A stretch of DNA of 28,217 nt from a virus (IMGVR_UViG_3300046462_000777:1-28217), one strand, 5' to 3'; shown: positions 6,665 to 23,838, numbered from the stretch's first letter. Notes: generated by a model not told the origin, from the sequence alone. A program made the numbers and translations.

Positions 6665-6710
6665 CCGGAGCCGAACAAGAAGTTCTCTTCTATGAAACGC
6701 GTTTTACATA

Positions 6711-7337
6711 TTATGTGGGCTGTTTCTTTTTGTCTATACTAGCTTTAAGCTTATCTCGGAAGCTATTGAAGCTCACATCACTAGACATACACTTCGAAAC
6801 TACATCACTGACTGTCATATTGCTCTTATGGGCTATATATGCCACATATTCAGAGATCTCTTCCTTGCTGAACTCTAACATACCTTTAGCAAGATCGTCG
6901 ATTGTAGAGCCCTTCTCTTCTTCCTTGGGCTTCTCAGCTCTTACGTGTTTCATGGCTTCTTCACCATCATCATCGTAGCTTGATATGCCTAAAATACCGC
7001 ACAAAGCGTATCTCTCGCTATAAGTAAGAGACCCACCCAGGGCTTGTACGTCGGGTTTTGATGTCCTTACATGCATTAAAGAACTTCTCCACTGACCAGA
7101 ACTATGCATTAATAGAGTTTCTAGAAAATCTTTCCCATCTATGTATAGAGGAGCCTGGGAAATTGCCAATTGATTTTCAGATAAAGGCTGTCGTATTACT
7201 GACCATATAGCATCTAAGCTGGCATACTTGGACTTGAAAAAAGGGTTCTTGGAGTCCTTCTCAACGCCTTCCAGCTTTCCTTGGAAGGCTGACAGAGCTT
7301 TTGCAAGCTCTCCTATTTCTGTAGAATGGTATGTCAT
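6711..7337 (-). CDS. erf: ERF family single-strand annealing recombinase
   Basis: This 208-residue protein carries the ERF signatures NPFFKSKYASLDAIW (residues 31-45) and ALGGSLTYSERYAL (99-112), followed by an acidic DDDGEEA box (122-128). ERF proteins, as in P22, anneal complementary single strands and form ring-like oligomers during phage recombination and circularisation. The C-terminal region is less conserved and charged, as usual. It starts by ATGA overlap with the upstream gene. It probably acts with the PD-(D/E)XK nuclease encoded upstream (8019-8636), which could provide resected ends. Family assignment is strong. Confidence 0.9.
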   Translation of the reverse strand: MTYHSTEIGELAKALSAFQGKLEGVEKDSKNPFFKSKYASLDAIWSVIRQPLSENQLAISQAPLYIDGKDFLETLLMHSSGQWRSSLMHVRTSKPDVQALGGSLTYSERYALCGILGISSYDDDGEEAMKHVRAEKPKEEEKGSTIDDLAKGMLEFSKEEISEYVAYIAHKSNMTVSDVVSKCMSSDVSFNSFRDKLKASIDKKKQPT

Positions 7338-7540
7338 TGTAATTGATCCAATAATGATTTAATAAAATTTATAGTATGTTCTCTACCATACTGATAATCC
7401 ACATAATTTACTAAGTAACTTGAGATACGCTCTGTCAACTTACGACCACCATGTTCTTTGAAGTATTTCTTGCAAATATCATTCATATCATCATAAAATT
7501 TTTGCTCACCAAGAGAAATCAGATCTTTGCGGCATTTCAT
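7334..7540 (-). CDS. Hypothetical 68-residue protein
   Basis: A GAGGTG ribosome site lies upstream of ATG 7540, inside the end of the preceding gene. The protein is helical and basic (MNDICKKYFKEHGGRKLTERI), with no recognised motif. It overlaps the ERF gene by ATGA, so co-translation with the recombinase is likely. An accessory recombination role is only an inference from position. Confidence 0.55.
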   Translation of the reverse strand: MKCRKDLISLGEQKFYDDMNDICKKYFKEHGGRKLTERISSYLVNYVDYQYGREHTINFIKSLLDQLQ

Positions 7541-7681
7541 CTAGCACCTCATCATTTCGTAGATGTGTTCTTCATAATCTTTTTCATTGGCAGCCTGCAC
7601 TTCCAAATCTTCTTCGTCAACTTCTTCTTCATACAGAAATGAAGGTTCAAACCAAGCATCACATGGTCCTAAGTCTTTCAT
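7541..7681 (-). CDS. Acidic 46-residue micro-protein
   Basis: The reading frame runs from ATG 7681 (overlapping the upstream stop as ATGA) to TAG 7541, immediately before the ATG of the next gene. The product begins MKDLGPCDAWFEPSF and becomes strongly acidic (YEEEVDEEDLEVQ). Perfect nesting between two genes, with no gap, supports that it is real. Acidic micro-proteins of this kind occur among phage early genes, sometimes as host-protein inhibitors, but nothing specific supports that here. Confidence 0.6.
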   Translation of the reverse strand: MKDLGPCDAWFEPSFLYEEEVDEEDLEVQAANEKDYEEHIYEMMRC

Positions 7682-16086: not shown

Positions 16087-18188
16087 TGGCAAATCCTATG
16101 TCAGACTATTCATCAGATGCAAAAGATTTTCTTAACGAATATAAAAAGAAAACACAACTCTCCGAGCATCAAGACATAATAAAAGACTTTGGTGAGCAGT
16201 ATGAACGCGCTTATCAGATGCTCAATACATTCTATGCAGAAGCCTATAAAGACCAATCTTTCTATCTCTCAAATCAATGGTCACTTGAAGAGCTTGCATA
16301 CCTAAACAATCAAAGACGTTCTGGCTTCACCTATAACATGATCCGAAGAATGATTAACCTTGTAGAAGGCATTCAAAGGTCAAATAGATTATCCACCATT
16401 TACAGTCCTATTGAAAATGCTGCAGATAGCACAGCAGAACTTCTCACTGATGTAGGACAGTATGTCATGCAATACGGTGGTGGCTATGAAAAGCTTTCGC
16501 AAGCTTTCAAAGATGCATGTGTGACCGGTATATCCTTCATATCTCCTTACATAGATTACCGTGATGACCCGGTAAACGGTGACATTAAATTTCATCTTGA
16601 CCACTGGAACTCAGTCATTTGGGATCCATTCATGTATGAGAGAGATATGTCTGACTGTGGGTTTATAGCTCGCCGTAAGTTTATATCTCGCACAGAAGCT
16701 ATATCACTACTGCCAGAGAAAGAAGATGCTATAAATGCCCTCCCCTATGGTTCTAGGGATGATAAATTTACCTATATGCCGTTTGCACGTCAATGGGGAA
16801 TGCAGAAGCTGCTTAACTACACTGAATACTGGAGAGCTAAGTGGGAAACGAGAGATGTGCTCGTTGACATGAGATCTGGAGAGACCTCAGAGTGGAAGGG
16901 AGATAGGAAACGTTTGGCTGTCCTTCAAAGGATGGATCCAAATATTAAAGTTATTAAGAAGCCAGTGAGAACTGTTGAACTTGGAATTATCATTGAGGGA
17001 GAGCTTCTATATTATGGGAAGGATCCATATGGCTTGGACGATTATCCTTTTGTGCCTATTTGGGTATGTTATGAACCATCTTATGACCTGTACACGTGGA
17101 AACTGCAAAGTCTTGTACGCTTCGTCCGCGATCCGCAAACGGAACTCAATAAGCGTCGATCAAAAATGGTAGATATCATCGATGCTCAGTTGAACTCTGG
17201 ATGGATAGCAAAGACTGGTGCTGTAACAAACAACTCCTCCCTATTCAAGTCTGGTAATGGTCAGGTATTGTTCCTCAAGCCAGAGGCTAACATGGACACA
17301 GATATAAGACGTATAGAAGCTCCAGGGATCCCTGATTCACAGTTTGCTCTTATGGATGCATTTGAAAAGGATATCCCTAACATTCTAGGTATCAACCCAG
17401 AAATGCTTGGCATGCCTGAAAATGAGAAGGTTGAGACAGCCGCTATCTTAGCCAAGATGCGTCAAGCTTCGGGCCTTATTGGGCTCAGAAACGTGTTTGA
17501 CAGCCTAGCCGAGAGCCAGAAGATACTTGGTAAGAAAGTAATGCAGCTCATACAGAAGAACTATTCCGCAGAAAAAGTAAAGGCTATCACCAAGAAAGAG
17601 CCTACCGAAGAATTCTACTCAGGCAATTGGTCCAAGTACAATGTAATTGTTGAGGAAGGTGTTCTCACAGATACTCAGAGACAGTCACAATACATGCAAC
17701 TTCTAGCTCTTAAGGGTCTTAACATGCCTATTCCTGACGGGCTTATCATTAAGAACTCAAACCTTCATGGAAAAGCAGAGCTTAATGAGATCCTTGATGC
17801 CCAAGCCAAACAACAACAAGAAGCTGCCCAGAAACAAGAACAGCTACAGATGCAGCAAATGCAAGTAATGACAGATGGTATTGAATCTAAAGCCCAATCT
17901 GATCAAGCACTTGCAATGGAAAGATTAAATAAAATTAATCTTGACGCTGCCCTAAATGCTGAGAGGACTCAAAAGGCGGAAGAAGATCGCACAGCTTCAG
18001 TGTTAAATTTAGTAAAAGCTGTGAAAGAGCTAGAGGGGCTAGACTTAGGCCTATTAACACAGAAGATAGCACTCCTAAAATCACTCGAAGCAGTACAATC
18101 GGGAGAAGCAGAATCAAAAGTAGACCAGCCAATAAATATGTCATCTATAAATCCTCAGGTAAATCAGGCAGTTGGGGGTAATGGTTGA
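16086..18188 (+). CDS. Portal protein, P22-like
   Basis: This 700-residue protein matches the P22-type portal plan. An N-terminal helical section (SFYLSNQWSLEELAYLNNQR) is followed by GFTYNMIRRMINLVEGIQRS. The wing region has DPFMYERDMSDCGF. The stem section FVRDPQTELNKRRSKMVDII leads into a GINPEMLGMPE segment. A long glutamine-rich coiled coil follows near residues 575-650. Twelve copies would form the head vertex through which terminase pumps DNA and to which adaptor proteins bind. The size is close to P22 gp1 (725). The coiled-coil C-terminal barrel is typical of podovirus portals. Confidence 0.92.
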   Translation: MANPMSDYSSDAKDFLNEYKKKTQLSEHQDIIKDFGEQYERAYQMLNTFYAEAYKDQSFYLSNQWSLEELAYLNNQRRSGFTYNMIRRMINLVEGIQRSNRLSTIYSPIENAADSTAELLTDVGQYVMQYGGGYEKLSQAFKDACVTGISFISPYIDYRDDPVNGDIKFHLDHWNSVIWDPFMYERDMSDCGFIARRKFISRTEAISLLPEKEDAINALPYGSRDDKFTYMPFARQWGMQKLLNYTEYWRAKWETRDVLVDMRSGETSEWKGDRKRLAVLQRMDPNIKVIKKPVRTVELGIIIEGELLYYGKDPYGLDDYPFVPIWVCYEPSYDLYTWKLQSLVRFVRDPQTELNKRRSKMVDIIDAQLNSGWIAKTGAVTNNSSLFKSGNGQVLFLKPEANMDTDIRRIEAPGIPDSQFALMDAFEKDIPNILGINPEMLGMPENEKVETAAILAKMRQASGLIGLRNVFDSLAESQKILGKKVMQLIQKNYSAEKVKAITKKEPTEEFYSGNWSKYNVIVEEGVLTDTQRQSQYMQLLALKGLNMPIPDGLIIKNSNLHGKAELNEILDAQAKQQQEAAQKQEQLQMQQMQVMTDGIESKAQSDQALAMERLNKINLDAALNAERTQKAEEDRTASVLNLVKAVKELEGLDLGLLTQKIALLKSLEAVQSGEAESKVDQPINMSSINPQVNQAVGGNG

Positions 18189-18189
18189 T

Positions 18190-18286
18190 TGGCACATCTA
18201 GGAATCGAACCTAGTTTGGGTTTAGGGCAGTACCCATCTTAACCCAACATATTGTCTTTGCTGGCACGCCATTTGCCATATGTGCC
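18190..18286 (-). tRNA. Non-canonical tRNA-like element
   Basis: Reading leftward, the element has a 7-base-pair acceptor stem (GGCACAT at 18286-18280, ATGTGCC at 18197-18191) and a D arm GGCA-AATGGCG-TGCC. Its T arm (18214-18198) is a perfect 5-base stem around TTCGATT, directly adjacent to the acceptor as in tRNAs. The intervening 48 bases do not form a normal anticodon arm. Instead a 7-base stem (18247-18241 with 18222-18216) encloses GGGTACTGCCC. I cannot place a 7-base anticodon loop with T33, so the isotype is unknown. It lacks an encoded CCA. It may be a degenerate class II tRNA or a tRNA mimic. Confidence 0.55.
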
Positions 18287-18293
18287 TTAAGTT

Positions 18294-18434
18294 TTATGCA
18301 GCAAGATCCTTAGGATTATAAACCTTATCCCAGCATCCAGGACCTTTGCTAGGATGTGTCTTGTCTTTATTCTTGCAGAGATAAGCACCTGTTACAATGC
18401 ATAAAGTGATAAGTGTAAGTAGTATAAGTTTCAT
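18294..18434 (-). CDS. Small exported or membrane protein (46 aa)
   Basis: The frame runs from ATG 18434 (overlapping the upstream stop as ATGA) to TAA 18294, 8 bases before the tRNA-like element. MKLILLTLITLCIVTGAYLC is a signal peptide or anchor; GCWDKVYNPKDLAA closes the protein. Overlap and hydrophobic start support it. No family recognised. Confidence 0.5.
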   Translation of the reverse strand: MKLILLTLITLCIVTGAYLCKNKDKTHPSKGPGCWDKVYNPKDLAA

Positions 18435-18688
18435 TCCTCATCCAACAAAAGTATGTTTTCTTCACCAAGTGCTTGCTTCATTTTTGAAATAAAATAATCT
18501 TTAGCCTGATCGAATTCTAAGTATAAAGTTTCAAATGTCACTAATTCTTTTTCTATATTATCCCAACCTATTATATGATAACATTTTCGTCCCTCACTAT
18601 CGAAAAGTTCGTTTCCAAGTCGTAATGAACCAATATCATCTAAACTATAGAAAACTAAATTTTCAGTGACAATCCATTTCTTACTCAT
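18431..18688 (-). CDS. Hypothetical 85-residue protein
   Basis: GGAGGAAAA lies before ATG 18688. The product reads as a small soluble alpha/beta protein (SKKWIVTENLVFYSLDDIGS, YHIIGWDNIEKELVTFETLY), ending in an acidic tail. Both neighbours overlap it by ATGA. It belongs to the leftward accessory island; function unknown. Confidence 0.55.
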   Translation of the reverse strand: MSKKWIVTENLVFYSLDDIGSLRLGNELFDSEGRKCYHIIGWDNIEKELVTFETLYLEFDQAKDYFISKMKQALGEENILLLDEE

Positions 18689-18852
18689 TTTTCCTCCTGC
18701 TGGATAAGCAATATTTCATACATAGCGTCTAGTCGCTCATTGAGACTTTTTATGTCGCAATTCATACTATTTGTCACGATTGAGAGTATCGTGACATTTA
18801 ATGTTGTCACACTAACGATGATTCCAAGAACGGTGTATAGCGAAAGTTTCAT
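18685..18852 (-). CDS. Small membrane protein with helical tail (55 aa)
   Basis: The frame runs from ATG 18852 to TGA 18685, overlapping the next start as ATGA. Its first ~28 residues are hydrophobic (LYTVLGIIVSVTTLNVTILS), followed by a coiled-coil-like tail (DIKSLNERLDAMYEILLIQQ) whose GGAGG-coding end is the ribosome site of the next gene. It contains a perfect 9-base inverted repeat (18772-18796). Confidence 0.5.
   Translation of the reverse strand: MKLSLYTVLGIIVSVTTLNVTILSIVTNSMNCDIKSLNERLDAMYEILLIQQEEK
18772..18796. repeat. Perfect 9-base inverted repeat in coding sequence
   Basis: TGTCACGAT (18772-18780) and ATCGTGACA (18788-18796) flank a 7-base loop within a small leftward gene. 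An RNA hairpin or protein site is plausible. Confidence 0.5.
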
Positions 18853-18970
18853 ATTGTCTTATCTGTCTTAAGGTTTTGTTAAAGCTCTTAGGTGGCCATG
18901 TACATAGCTTAATACTTGGCTTGTGTCCAATGAAATTGTTTGAGTTCTGCCAGCGTTTTATTTCCCACAT
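18812..18970 (-). CDS. Possible 52-residue protein (weak)
   Basis: A minus-strand frame from ATG 18970 to TAG 18812 would encode a basic, tryptophan-containing protein (MWEIKRWQNSNNFIGHKPSI). It overlaps the next gene by 41 bases and has only GAG upstream, so it may be spurious. It is listed because it would otherwise leave a 180-base gap. Confidence 0.25.
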   Translation of the reverse strand: MWEIKRWQNSNNFIGHKPSIKLCTWPPKSFNKTLRQIRQYETFAIHRSWNHR

Positions 18971-18980
18971 ATATTCTCAA

Positions 18981-19020
18981 CTACCGATTATCTACCAGTT
19001 TCTACCGATTTGGTAGATAA
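18981..19020. repeat. CTACC triple repeat with 10-base inverted repeat
   Basis: CTACCGATTAT, CTACCAGTTT and CTACCGATTT start at 18981, 18992 and 19002, near one helical turn apart. TTATCTACCA (18988-18997) and TGGTAGATAA (19011-19020) form a perfect inverted repeat with a 13-base spacer. The element lies 14 bases beyond the 3' end of tRNA-Asn. Alternative hairpins can form. Confidence 0.5.
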
Positions 19021-19033
19021 ATGTTTATATATT

Positions 19034-19106
19034 AGGCACAGGAAGGGATCAAACCTTCGACCTACGCCTTAACAGGGCGCCGCTACTATCGCTGAGCTAC
19101 TGTGCC
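19034..19106 (-). tRNA. tRNA-Asn (anticodon GTT)
   Basis: All arms fold in leftward RNA. The acceptor is GGCACAG/CTGTGCC and the D arm has a 3-base stem. The anticodon stem GCGCC/GGCGT encloses CTGTTAA with anticodon GTT, the variable loop is AGGTC, and the T arm GAAGG/CCTTC encloses TTTGATC. The discriminator reads T, not the usual G of Asn, and CCA is not encoded. The D loop has GA where GG is usual and the T loop has T at position 56, so an A-U pair may replace the normal G19-C56 contact. Confidence 0.85.
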
Positions 19107-20027
19107 TTATGTTTTATAACTCTTATTTCTTAAAATTTTCCATAAATGTTGCTGATTTATCTGAAACATTTCTCGTAACTGTTGTTGATTATAATTACCA
19201 GATAAATATAACTCTCTGAGAGCAAGTGCCTCTTTGTCGGTAAGTTTTGCATTCCAAGATTTTCCACCTGTTTTAAGATCTCTATTTATTTGACATCCAC
19301 AAGATTTTATACCCCATAAATCATTTATTCCACGTACAATTTTATTCCCACATTTGCACGTTAACTCATAAAGTGTTCTTTTTCCTTTTTCTATTTTATG
19401 AATACCTATAATTTTTAAGGAACCATGTACATACCCTATCCAATGCTCAGCATTTTTTCTTACATTATCAGCCTTTAAACATCCACAACTTTGAGTGTCT
19501 CTTTGTACGGTGCATTTATTTCCACAGTCACAAATTGCATTGTACTTACTTTTTCCTAGATATTCTGTGTAAATCAATTTTCCAAATCGTTTTCCAATTC
19601 TATTTTGAGGACTAAGACTAGTCAAGCATTTGACACATTTGCCAATCCGAGTAAGATTTCTTCTTGTCCCTTCATATCCGCAATCACATTTTATTTTGTA
19701 ATAAGGGACTCCATTTTCGCCCCGAATGACATCAATGACGGTGTAAGTATTGAACCTCTGACCTATTTTATAAGTTAATCTCATATTTCCACGTAAAGCA
19801 GTACAAGATCGACATCCAGTAACTTTACATTTATGGTTCATGCGCATATATGTTTCTGTCTTACATTCTAAGCATTGGCATAGGTAGACACGTTTTTCAT
19901 TTTGATCAGTGAAAATTTCCTTTACAAGGTAATTTCCAATAGACTCACCTTTTTTCAAATGCAATTTAGATTGATTCTCTACAGGTAAAACCTTAAGAAT
20001 TAGACCACTCGTCACTAATTTTGTCAT
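19107..20027 (-). CDS. Four-fold cysteine-pair (zinc) protein with C-terminal HTH
   Basis: This 306-residue protein has four repeats of about 45 residues, each with a glycine-aromatic opening and two cysteine pairs. These are C50/C52/C55 with C72/C75; C114/C116 with C131/C134; C166/C168 with C181/C183; and C224/C226 with C243/C245 (CDCGN ... SCGC). They are probably zinc-binding. Residues ~257-306 (LTDKEALALRELYL ... QQQLREMFQINQQHLWKIL) form an HTH like those at the end of homing endonucleases. No HNH or GIY-YIG motif is visible. Likely a DNA-binding protein from a homing or mobile lineage. It overlaps the ParB-like gene by 35 bases and abuts tRNA-Asn. Confidence 0.65.
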   Translation of the reverse strand: MTKLVTSGLILKVLPVENQSKLHLKKGESIGNYLVKEIFTDQNEKRVYLCQCLECKTETYMRMNHKCKVTGCRSCTALRGNMRLTYKIGQRFNTYTVIDVIRGENGVPYYKIKCDCGYEGTRRNLTRIGKCVKCLTSLSPQNRIGKRFGKLIYTEYLGKSKYNAICDCGNKCTVQRDTQSCGCLKADNVRKNAEHWIGYVHGSLKIIGIHKIEKGKRTLYELTCKCGNKIVRGINDLWGIKSCGCQINRDLKTGGKSWNAKLTDKEALALRELYLSGNYNQQQLREMFQINQQHLWKILRNKSYKT

Positions 20028-20736
20028 AATTTTTATAATTGTAAATATTTATTAATAATTTATACCAATCTTGTGCCGTACGCTGAGGCTTTAGCTCAAA
20101 CCATTTCAGGTCTAATTTTTTAAAAAATATATCTTCAGAAAAATTTGTCGTATGATACACCCAACGCAGTGCTTTGGTAAAATTGAAGTTGGTAAACATG
20201 CTTACTGGGCGTAATTTTTTATCATTGGCATAATCTTGGAATCTTAGAAAGAAATCAACTAAAGCTTTTGGATCAATATCGGAGGGAAATTGAAATTTAC
20301 CAGTCTTAAGAAATTCAAGCAATATAGGACTAATAGCACCGATCATGAGAGATAAAATCGCTTTTGGTTTAAGAGAAGTAAGTTTTATAAGTTCTTTAAG
20401 CTTAATGTAATCAGACTTTTTTTCTTTGATGGCAAAGTAATCGATAAAATTTTCTACTTCCCAAGATTTTTGATTAACATTTCCTTCAATCAAATGTATA
20501 TCTGAGACATTTTCGGATTTTATATAGAAAATATCTAAACCGAGTTCCTTGGCCACTTCCAATCTATGTTGACCGTCAATTACTGACATTTGTTTATTTA
20601 CAATTATAGGATGTATAGCAAGTTGATTTTCACGCTGTATAGATGCCCGTAATTTTCTTAAATGCTTGGTATCTAAGTGTCGATTTCCTTCCATTTTTTG
20701 GAATATTTCATAATTTTTTGTATGCTGTATTTCCAT
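19993..20736 (-). CDS. ParB-like protein
   Basis: This 247-residue protein has an N-terminal ParB/Srx-type domain. NRHLDTKHLRKLRASI is followed by HPIIVNKQMSVIDGQHRLEV (Asp54, Gly55, Gln56, His57, Arg58), the ParB nucleotide-binding or nuclease-like core. The rest (residues ~100-247) is helical and lysine-rich, unlike standard ParB DNA-binding and dimerisation regions. No ParA or parS-like array is nearby, so plasmid-type partition is not supported. Stand-alone ParB-fold proteins in phages can be nucleases or CTP-linked switches. It is the first gene of the leftward island. Confidence 0.7.
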   Translation of the reverse strand: MEIQHTKNYEIFQKMEGNRHLDTKHLRKLRASIQRENQLAIHPIIVNKQMSVIDGQHRLEVAKELGLDIFYIKSENVSDIHLIEGNVNQKSWEVENFIDYFAIKEKKSDYIKLKELIKLTSLKPKAILSLMIGAISPILLEFLKTGKFQFPSDIDPKALVDFFLRFQDYANDKKLRPVSMFTNFNFTKALRWVYHTTNFSEDIFFKKLDLKWFELKPQRTAQDWYKLLINIYNYKNYDKISDEWSNS

Positions 20737-20767
20737 ATATATAGGTAAACCTTAGTTAATTTCTTCT

Positions 20768-20797
20768 ATCATACACCATTCCAACATTCTAGTCCAA
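20768..20797 (-). promoter_or_regulatory. Candidate promoter for ParB-like gene
   Basis: Leftward, TTGGAC (20797-20792) and TATGAT (20773-20768) are 18 bases apart, 32 bases before ATG 20736. TGTTGGA occurs twice here (13 bases apart), so this may also be a regulator site. Confidence 0.4.
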
Positions 20798-20837
20798 CAC
20801 ATTCTTCTAACCTCTAGTTTTTTCTTACTTGCATAAT

Positions 20838-20867
20838 TTGTCTGTAAACCGTAAATTTACTTCTAAT
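20838..20867 (+). promoter_or_regulatory. Candidate promoter for head genes
   Basis: TTGTCT (20838-20843) and TCTAAT (20862-20867) are 18 bases apart, upstream of ATG 20896. A new promoter is expected because the leftward island interrupts the structural operon. Confidence 0.45.
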
Positions 20868-20895
20868 GACATAATCACTCTACCCAGAGGCACCT

Positions 20896-21165
20896 ATGAG
20901 CTTCAATTTCCTTGATCAAGGATACTTACCTGAAGACAGCTATTCACGTCAACTAGACCGACGTGTTGCAGATCAAGAATATCCCTATGGATATACTTCA
21001 AACGAGCCGCCTGCAGGACATCCCAATGATAGAATAGATGCTCATGCATATAAGGATCAATCTCTTGCACCACAAAGAAACTTACCTATAGAGAATACTT
21101 CCAAAGGGCAGAAAGACTTTCCTTCACGTGAAAGTAAAATGCGTATGAAGATGAAAGGTAGTTAA
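20896..21165 (+). CDS. Hypothetical 89-residue head-region protein
   Basis: It is the first rightward gene after the island. The product is hydrophilic and charged (MSFNFLDQGYLPEDSYSRQL, RVADQEYPYGYTSNEPPAG) and ends basic (MRMKMKGS), so it may be disordered. GAGGCACCT precedes the ATG. It overlaps the next gene by TAATG. Its position before scaffold and capsid suggests an assembly accessory role. Confidence 0.55.
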   Translation: MSFNFLDQGYLPEDSYSRQLDRRVADQEYPYGYTSNEPPAGHPNDRIDAHAYKDQSLAPQRNLPIENTSKGQKDFPSRESKMRMKMKGS

Positions 21166-22109: not shown

Positions 22110-22880
22110 ATGACGATATACGATCAAGATTACATGGCTGAATTTGATCAGCAACAAAAACATACGGGCGTAGTTGACTCAGCCGCCGTGAGTCCGGAAG
22201 TGGTAGAACAAGAGCAAGTTTCTTCCCAAGAACCCATTGTTAGCGCAAGCAATGATTCTGAAAAGGAATATAACTTCAAAGCTCTTCGTGATTCTATCGC
22301 ACAAGAGAAAGCAGAAAGGGAAGCTGAAAAGCTTCGCTATAGCCAAGAACTTGAGTTTATGCGTAGTCAAATTGCTATGCAACAGCAGCCGGCTCAGAAG
22401 CGTAGTCCACTTGAGGACGAAAGGGATGATGACTTACTTACTGTTGGTAAGTACAAGCAAACCCAAGCAGAATATGAGCAGGCTCTTCGACAGCAAGAAG
22501 AAAACTATAGACTCAAACTTAATGAGCTAGAAACGAAGGTTCAGAATCCCGACTATGATGAGGTTATGGATAAGTATGCCATTCCTCTTTTAAAAACGAA
22601 CCGTGACTTCGCGATAGCTTTTCAGAATTCGGAGAACAAGGCTTCATTTGCCTATAATCTAGGCAGAATGCACCGAGACTCCCAAAGAATTGAGCCTGCT
22701 CAGCCAAGAGAGCCAGAAGTCAGCCAAAAGGCACAGCGTATAGTCGAAAACTCTAGCAAACCTGGTACATTGTCAAGTGCACGTGGCGGCCAGCCCAGCC
22801 TGAGCAAAGCAGAGTATTACGCATCGATGTCTGAGTCTGAATTCAATGCTCTTGTGGAGAAAAACTTGACCGAGGTCTAA
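22110..22880 (+). CDS. Scaffolding protein (putative)
   Basis: This 256-residue protein has a central coiled coil (FKALRDSIAQEKAEREAEKL, EQALRQQEENYRLKLNELET). Its C-terminal portion ends SLSKAEYYASMSESEFNALV. It is acidic and Gln-rich, the composition of scaffolds that fill the prohead and depart or are cleaved before packaging. It lies directly before the capsid gene, the canonical place. AAGGAAA precedes the ATG. No protease domain is visible. Function follows from composition, position and size. Confidence 0.75.
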   Translation: MTIYDQDYMAEFDQQQKHTGVVDSAAVSPEVVEQEQVSSQEPIVSASNDSEKEYNFKALRDSIAQEKAEREAEKLRYSQELEFMRSQIAMQQQPAQKRSPLEDERDDDLLTVGKYKQTQAEYEQALRQQEENYRLKLNELETKVQNPDYDEVMDKYAIPLLKTNRDFAIAFQNSENKASFAYNLGRMHRDSQRIEPAQPREPEVSQKAQRIVENSSKPGTLSSARGGQPSLSKAEYYASMSESEFNALVEKNLTEV

Positions 22881-22896
22881 CTATGAGTAGACCTTT

Positions 22897-23838
22897 ATGG
22901 CAATTACAACATTAACCCAACTTCCTCCAGAAGTTAGGACCTATTTCGATAGAATGTTGTTGACCTTAGCTCGTCCATATTTCATCTATGACCTATTCGC
23001 ACAAAAGCGACAGATCCCACTTAATAGTGGTGATCAAATGGTCTTTAGACGTTATGGTACCCTAAGCGCAGCAACAATTCCACTTACAGATGGCCAAACA
23101 CCTTCAGGTGATCAACTATCAGTAACAGACTTTAAAGCAGCAATTAGCTGGTATGGTTCTTTTGTAACCATTACAGACCAAGTTCAATTCGTGGTACAAG
23201 ACCGCGTGTTGAATGAATCAACAAAAGTATTGTCACTACAGCTCGGCTTGACTATCGATACCCTCATACGTGATATGATGGTATCTACTGCTTCTACCAT
23301 TGCATGTAGCAAAGGTCTGAACGGTAATACACCAACTGAAGTCACCGATGGTGATATTCAGACAGCAATAATTGCTCTCCGTCAAGGAAATGCTCGTCTG
23401 ATGACGAACCCACTTCCAGGTGAAAACAAGTTTGGTACAGCTCCAGTTCGTGCTTCATACTGGGGTTTCATGTCAGTTGACCTACAGGATGATCTTGAAA
23501 ACGTATCAAGCTTTATCTCGGCAGCTAACTATCCTAATCCAGGCAATGCACTTGAAGCAGAATGGGGTTCAACCCGTAACTGCAGATGGTTGCTTAATAC
23601 CAATGGATTTAGCAATGGTGCATCACCAAACGTATACTCTAACTTCTTGCTTGGTCAAGAAGCTTATGGTGTTGTTCGTCTTGGTGCAAAGGAAGCAGAA
23701 TTTATCGTGAAGCCACTTGGCGCTTCTGGTACAGCTGATCCTCTTAACCAACGTGGAACTGTTGGCTACAAGTATCCTTTCGCTACAAGGATCTTGAATG
23801 ACAACTGGATTACACGTTTAACAGCTACACACTCATAA
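22897..23838 (+). CDS. Major capsid protein, N4-gp56 type
   Basis: This 313-residue protein starts MAITTLTQLPPEVRTYFDRM, with the N-terminal pattern of the N4-gp56 capsid family. It continues with HK97-fold features: an N-terminal arm, an extended E-loop region (NSGDQMVFRRYGTLSAATIP) and a beta-rich P-domain. It assembles into the icosahedral head around the scaffold encoded just upstream. The ribosome site before ATG 22897 is weak for such an abundant protein; translation may be coupled from the scaffold gene. Confidence 0.9.
   Translation: MAITTLTQLPPEVRTYFDRMLLTLARPYFIYDLFAQKRQIPLNSGDQMVFRRYGTLSAATIPLTDGQTPSGDQLSVTDFKAAISWYGSFVTITDQVQFVVQDRVLNESTKVLSLQLGLTIDTLIRDMMVSTASTIACSKGLNGNTPTEVTDGDIQTAIIALRQGNARLMTNPLPGENKFGTAPVRASYWGFMSVDLQDDLENVSSFISAANYPNPGNALEAEWGSTRNCRWLLNTNGFSNGASPNVYSNFLLGQEAYGVVRLGAKEAEFIVKPLGASGTADPLNQRGTVGYKYPFATRILNDNWITRLTATHS

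Follow-up and report, generated by a model that had tools for sequence, protein, structure and literature searches.

Organization of the minus-strand island

The virus fragment IMGVR_UViG_3300046462_000777 from IMG/VR (28,217 bp, hereafter the window, i.e., the whole stretch that was analysed) carries a block of minus-strand genes at 18191–20736, which sits between the portal gene and the head genes. The portal is P22-like (PF16510, 2.9e-91, Pfam profile search) and ends with a stop codon at 18188, the major capsid gene starts at 22897 (phrog_1357, 4.4e-41, PHROG profile search), and plus-strand genes resume at 20896 with an 89-aa gene directly to the right of the island. An earlier note, made from the sequence alone, had described the block as an inverted accessory island "portal to scaffold" with a tRNA-like element, three or four small genes, a tRNA-Asn, a four-repeat zinc-type protein with a helix-turn-helix (HTH) and a ParB-like protein. 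The position of the block and every listed element were recovered; the right-hand neighbour, however, is the 89-aa gene, and the candidate scaffold gene lies at 22110–22880. The main features are as follows.

18189–20895, no strand: hypervariable accessory locus, from the portal stop to the 89-aa gene (comparison of relatives)
19993–20736, minus: ParB/sulfiredoxin (Srx)-fold protein, 247 aa, DGQHR motif, first gene of the ParB–zinc cassette (profile, fold and tree; 35-bp overlap with the next gene)
19107–20027, minus: zinc-repeat protein with four Cys repeats and a C-terminal HTH, 306 aa, second gene of the cassette (phrog_374, 2.4e-22; recurrent ParB partner)
19033–19107, minus: tRNA-Asn(GTT) (ARAGORN; Rfam RF00005, 56.8 bits; 5' end directly adjoining the zinc-gene stop codon)
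18191–18286, minus: tRNA-like non-coding RNA, 96 nt (arms; homologue at L005:8208–8304, minus strand)

Along its own direction of transcription, the island reads ParB-like gene, zinc-repeat/HTH gene, tRNA-Asn, open reading frames (ORFs) of 55, 85 and 46 aa, and the tRNA-like element, which ends 2 nt from the portal stop. It is AT-rich, with a GC content of 0.335 (0.22–0.25 at third codon positions, GC3), against 0.416 for the portal and 0.415 for the head genes. At the level of gene layout, the island is shown to be a separate leftward gene block.

A mobile ParB–zinc cassette

The relatives used for comparison, designated by L numbers, are all metagenomic contigs, with portals up to 79% identical to that of the window, and each homology search was confined to its best 80 loci. 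With five aligned ParB proteins as the query, 13 of the best 80 viral loci (12 without the duplicate contig L122) group with the window ParB, and in the tree these cassette ParBs form one clade (98/91, 13 rows), a clustering equalled in none of 500 shuffles. Next to ParB, and on the same strand, a zinc-repeat gene is found in every member of the clade except two that are ended by contig limits; the two genes overlap by 8–35 nt in nearly all members and by 35 bp in the window. The sisters of the clade are the ParBs of L005 and of contigs of L003 and L078.

The ParB of the window is 55–58% identical to those of L118–L124, whereas the portals there are only 29–36% identical to that of the window, which points to horizontal movement of ParB. 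In L005, L035, L053 and L077, whose portals are much closer to that of the window, the ParBs are 22–28% identical to the window ParB. The position of the cassette also varies: it occupies the gap between portal and major capsid protein (MCP) in the window, L118 and likely L119, lies upstream of the portal in L121 and L135, upstream of the large terminase gene (TerL) in L123, beside TerL in L128 and L124, and after the MCP in L120. In all placed cases but L124, it is antisense to the structural genes. This comparison shows the ParB-like and zinc-repeat/HTH genes to behave as one mobile two-gene cassette, moved between distant phages and genome positions. The suggestion in the earlier note that the island is possibly mobile thus holds for this pair, in view of its varied positions and very different portals, but gains no such support for the rest of the island. 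No annotated ParB–zinc pair occurs among the ParB neighbours in cultured Enterococcus and Flavobacterium phages or at the zinc neighbour in Sphingomonas phage MMDA13.

Outside the cassette clade, the gene after a more distant ParB encodes a serine recombinase (PF00239, 1e-24 to 1e-28), overlapping by 4 bp, in L164, L179 and L189, an HTH_38 protein in L133 and a sigma-region-4 protein in L168. A serine recombinase (PF00239) also lies further downstream of a related ParB in L154; the genes in L154, L164, L179 and L189 are located near 6700–7600.

The two proteins of the cassette

The 247-aa protein matches the ParB-like family phrog_12305 almost end to end (3.3e-28). Its predicted model (pLDDT 81) matches ParB–nucleotide structures and sulfiredoxins, with a Foldseek E of 4.6e-4 and a probability of 1.00 to ParB–CDP structures. 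Box II reads DGQHR where canonical ParBs have the GERR type, the LG(R/K)GL motif for ParA binding is absent from the sequence, and no parA is adjacent, the neighbours being the zinc protein and the 89-aa gene (only adjacent genes were examined). Similarity of the window ParB to GmrSD_N/DUF262 is weak (E = 0.028, 15 bits against a cut-off of 33.2); for the L118 ParB, the E value is 6e-4.

The 306-aa partner matches phrog_374, "HNH endonuclease", in three stretches, and the same zinc/HTH repeats also match annotated HNH endonucleases. An HNH-like pattern was found in none of 11 zinc partners, and no Pfam nuclease in the two partners scanned; DNA cutting is therefore offered here as a hypothesis. 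Structure prediction for the zinc protein was uninformative (pLDDT 33), and no match was obtained among solved structures. In pairs whose ParBs are at least 50% identical, the zinc partner diverges twice as fast as ParB, with mean identities of 62% for ParB and 31% for the zinc partner, and the number of Cys residues among zinc partners ranges from 14 to 25. A fast-diverging zinc partner joined to a conserved ParB would resemble an exchangeable specificity subunit with its effector.

Candidate promoter and operator region

Upstream of the ParB genes, a palindrome, AATSTTNNAASATT, followed by TTTA(T), lies 44–51 nt before the ParB start and is exact in all six of the closest homologues (p ≤ 0.002 each), within whose loci the palindrome is almost unique. 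Changes in this operator among homologues keep its symmetry (AATCTT..AAGATT, AATGTT..AACATT). The window keeps only one operator half, AATGTTGGAA, beside TATGAT, exactly at the promoter proposed in the earlier note (20797–20768). That proposal thus coincides with an operator/−10 region kept upstream of homologous ParB genes, but as a promoter the site at 20796–20768 scores 9/12, which is not above chance, since many chance sites equal it. The same note had placed the start of new rightward transcription at 20838; the segment from there to 20895 does precede the 89-aa gene, and relatives carry a conserved, AT-rich promoter motif at this place, but the window copy is only a partial match, and a position weight matrix scan of the window gave no site above shuffles.

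20768–20796, minus: promoter-like site of the island, half cassette operator (within 20775–20788) plus TATGAT (alignment with the operators of homologues)
20838–20895, plus: start region of the rightward head-gene block (motif of relatives aligned by eye)

No minus-strand terminator of the island was found.

The tRNA-like RNA and its neighbours

The 96-nt element next to the portal has a perfect 7-bp acceptor, a 3-bp D arm, a perfect 5-bp T arm (TTCGATT loop) and a long variable hairpin, and a perfect acceptor and T arm at this spacing occurred in none of 300 Markov-shuffled windows. Its homologue in L005 stands at the same place and is identical at 80 of 97 positions, while DNA identity of the L005 portal is 62% and nowhere in the portal alignment do 97 consecutive columns hold more than 78 identities. 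Compensatory changes affect one pair each in the D stem (columns 11–23) and the central hairpin (columns 43–70). The anticodon region is atypical, with a conserved AAGACAATA stretch and no U33 in a normal 7-nt loop. Judged from its arms and conservation, the element is a real, non-canonical, conserved RNA.

It was missed by ARAGORN at default settings and by Rfam even at E ≤ 5, and forced tRNA fits disagree (His, Thr, or Pro with an intron). A tRNA-Pro reading that requires a 20-nt intron (ARAGORN -i) was rejected because the forced fits disagree and because, to our knowledge, bacteria have no enzyme for such tRNA introns. Three DNA patterns applied to viral contigs, one applied to genome contigs and a covariance model run on about 50 whole records and more than 150 further loci recovered only the window and L005 members, the other hits being ordinary tRNAs or chance.

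Across its 5' leader and first bases, the tRNA-like element (18281–18297) is identical to the tRNA-Asn (19101–19117) at 16 of 17 positions. In five loci (window, L126, L131, L133 and L147), the start of a tRNA gene lies no more than 26 nt from the end of a ParB operon or overlaps it, so tRNAs at this place may be the rule and not an accident. Among other RNAs encountered, L012:2541–2639 (plus) is a further tRNA-like element, of 99 nt, whose acceptor and T arms are perfect and which adjoins a tRNA with an 8-nt anticodon loop. ARAGORN additionally reports a selenocysteine tRNA (TCA) upstream of the portal at L227:1850–1926 and L228:1445–1521, in two overlapping and near-identical contigs.

The portal–head junction as a variable site

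About 80 relatives, mostly genomes of 39–40 kb or fragments thereof, were recovered with the portal and the capsid as queries. No cultured relatives were found beyond about 31% capsid identity, and a search of genome contigs for relatives, as a clue to the host, found none. Among the relatives, the interval from the portal to the 89-aa gene spans 21 bp to more than 4 kb. Within the family, taken as the 44 non-redundant loci that share the 89-aa gene, the junction is empty (≤170 bp) in 13; the cargo of the others is mainly on the minus strand in 20, on the plus strand in nine and on neither in two. In a distant sister group, plus-strand genes occupy the junction in 18 of 19 loci. In the portal tree, the window belongs to a 10-member clade (100/100), nearly all of whose members have the site filled; L078, a sister of L005, has the site without minus-strand ORFs.

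Even L218 and L221, with 77% DNA identity between their portals, carry different contents. A DNA methyltransferase stands at this junction in L018, the island of L005 joins a tRNA-Asn, the tRNA-like RNA, an RNA ligase (phrog_548, 6.8e-18) and a ParB, and tRNAs are found here in L007 (Trp), L005 (Asn) and L033 (seven); L003 probably has a tRNA-Met at the junction, its contig stopping before the next gene. The empty junctions and the turnover of content, to which the AT-richness relative to the flanks may be added, identify an accessory island and bear out the description of a moron-like cargo in opposite direction to the operon; the alternative raised in the earlier note, that all relatives keep the same island, is ruled out by them. 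By this comparison, the portal–head junction is shown to be a hypervariable accessory locus, empty in other family branches and with differing, mostly antisense cargo in the branch of the window.

Repeated small minus-strand "MTEWISVK..LP...THWMPLP" proteins (DUF551-like; phrog_924/7704) occupy the same site in L002, L005, L079, L218, L226 and L228.

Proposed mechanism and alternative explanations

We consider the island to be a separate leftward unit at a variable site, which bears a mobile ParB–zinc cassette together with passenger RNAs and acts in a homing-like or excluding manner; as a whole, this reading stands at about an even chance. The ParB-like and zinc proteins would act as a complex: the zinc array, together with the HTH, may select the DNA site, the DGQHR-bearing ParB/Srx protein may serve as a nucleoside triphosphate (NTP)-dependent effector, and the complex would repress its own operator. 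Acting on the DNA of co-infecting phages that do not carry the cassette, it could favour inheritance of the cassette by homing-like spread or exclusion, a step that, taken alone, is put forward tentatively and with less assurance than the reading as a whole. The downstream genes would be passengers on the cassette transcript, the tRNA-Asn possibly aiding translation or decoding; the tRNA-like RNA, a tRNA body with no decoding loop, would most likely engage tRNA-binding enzymes and not the ribosome. The recurrence of the pair in distant phages suggests a small selfish or rival-excluding element. A bolder version, in which the ParB/Srx protein and a zinc array of exchangeable specificity constitute a hitherto undescribed, HNH-free two-component selfish phage element, related to the ParB–serine recombinase versions and joined in the window with a non-decoding tRNA mimic of a new class, is possible but rather doubtful.

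Several points weigh against the proposed mechanism. The nuclease activity of ParB/Srx folds is debated, and no nuclease motif was recognised in the ParB-like or the zinc protein. The palindrome is degenerate in the window, where the best match to its pattern has three mismatches, lies elsewhere and is not significant (p = 0.37). No filled/empty pair of loci with exact cassette boundaries was found, and L141, L142 and L144, which are relatives of L118, have a different ParB without a zinc partner at a similar place. Furthermore, with only two members of the tRNA-like RNA known, the fold of its anticodon arm is not settled.

Three other explanations have to be set beside it. The ParB and its HTH partner could be a regulatory or maintenance pair that controls phage transcription or partitions an episomal phage and spreads by ordinary recombination at variable sites, as would suit the ParB fold, the palindromic operator, the presence of ParBs family-wide and the location of related ParBs beside resolvases, as in plasmids. 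The DGQHR Box II, the missing LG(R/K)GL motif, the lack of an adjacent parA and the varying positions speak against it, however, and the fast divergence of the zinc partner would be unexpected in a protein that regulates a conserved set of phage genes; this explanation appears doubtful. An anti-phage or counter-defence island, in which the tRNA-Asn and a tRNA-like decoy oppose host tRNA nucleases and the ParB–zinc pair provides a restriction-like, GmrSD-like exclusion, is unlikely. It would account for the joining of tRNA-Asn, tRNA-like RNA, RNA ligase and ParB in L005 and for the weak GmrSD_N similarity of the ParBs, and phage tRNAs have been proposed to evade host anticodon nucleases (PMC10264068); yet the GmrSD hits lie under the curated cut-off, there is no HNH partner, and PADLOC gave no substantial match. 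PADLOC returned only a weak methylase-N match (E = 0.0086), leaving the "possibly defensive" role suggested in the earlier note with no positive support.

Least probable of all, and improbable in itself, is an ordinary moron island of unrelated small genes at a recombination-tolerant junction, kept by drift or a weak host-specific benefit, with ParB, zinc protein and RNAs functionally unlinked. Turnover of content, the occupation of this site in relatives by DUF551-like and methylase genes, and small ORFs without a family are what it would predict, but the ParB–zinc pair stays together, with overlapping genes, across distant phages, and no portal stretch of equal length reaches the conservation of the tRNA-like RNA.

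Relation to known systems

Like the moron or accessory islands of tailed phages, the window island is missing from relatives, has a deviant GC content and would be an added transcription unit amid the genes of an operon, with a putative promoter region of its own; it differs in being antisense, in lying between portal and head genes, in its rapid turnover at one fixed junction and in bearing a recurrent mobile pair. Free-standing homing endonucleases (phrog_374, HNH) share with the zinc protein the Cys repeats, the C-terminal HTH, mobility and a place among essential phage genes, whereas the zinc protein has no recognised nuclease and is paired with a ParB/Srx protein.

A survey of ParB folds describes frequent association with mobile elements, NTP versatility and phage fusions (PMC12704722), and the phage ParB/Srx proteins of DGQHR type treated there resemble the window protein in the N-terminal fold, the position of the NTP-binding motif and the association with phages and mobile elements. 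The pairing with a zinc-repeat/HTH protein was not found in the passages of it that were consulted; in its main text, "zinc" occurs once and "recombinase" not at all. GmrSD type IV restriction is likewise a two-component system, with a DGQQR ParB/Srx domain (motif DGQ[QH]R) beside a DNA-acting partner (PMC4619093); the window partner, in contrast, is not HNH, its ParB matches DUF262 far under the cut-off, and its location is in a phage and not in a host. The ParB–zinc pair is not described in the parts covered of these two sources or of PMC10264068, and literature coverage is incomplete. Finally, phage tRNAs and the stable tRNA-like RNAs of phage tRNA clusters have the acceptor, D and T arms and a tRNA gene as neighbour in common with the window element, which differs in the absence of a 7-nt anticodon loop with U33, in its long variable hairpin and in having no Rfam match.

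Phages commonly carry orphan ParB-like genes, most of which lack an explanation. A strict and horizontally moving pairing of ParB with a fast-diverging DNA-binding partner, together with the serine recombinase pairings of sister ParBs, would suggest a testable role as a target-specific mobile or exclusion module. A conserved tRNA mimic with no decoding loop would add an RNA as a second testable object, one that may counteract host defences aimed at tRNAs.

Remaining features of the island and its relatives

Three small minus-strand ORFs separate the tRNA-Asn from the tRNA-like element, and none has a convincing family.

18685–18852, minus: 55-aa ORF, membrane helix and coiled-coil-like tail (weak phrog_13754, E = 0.0015)
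18431–18688, minus: 85-aa ORF (ORF call; no family match)
18294–18434, minus: 46-aa ORF, hydrophobic N-terminus (ORF call; no family match)

No homologue of the 46-aa ORF was found in the relatives. The island ends show no transposon ends or direct repeats, the sole repeat being the 17-nt common leader of the two RNAs.

Elsewhere in the relatives, insertions resembling group I introns that bear LAGLIDADG-type or minus-strand ORFs, none of them found at Rfam gathering thresholds, split the major capsid genes of many relatives within L066–L086 (e.g., L079:8001–9420 and L083:5118–7096); they measure 208–978 bp and lie at recurring sites, at about aa 57–61, 87–98, 227, 256 and 290.

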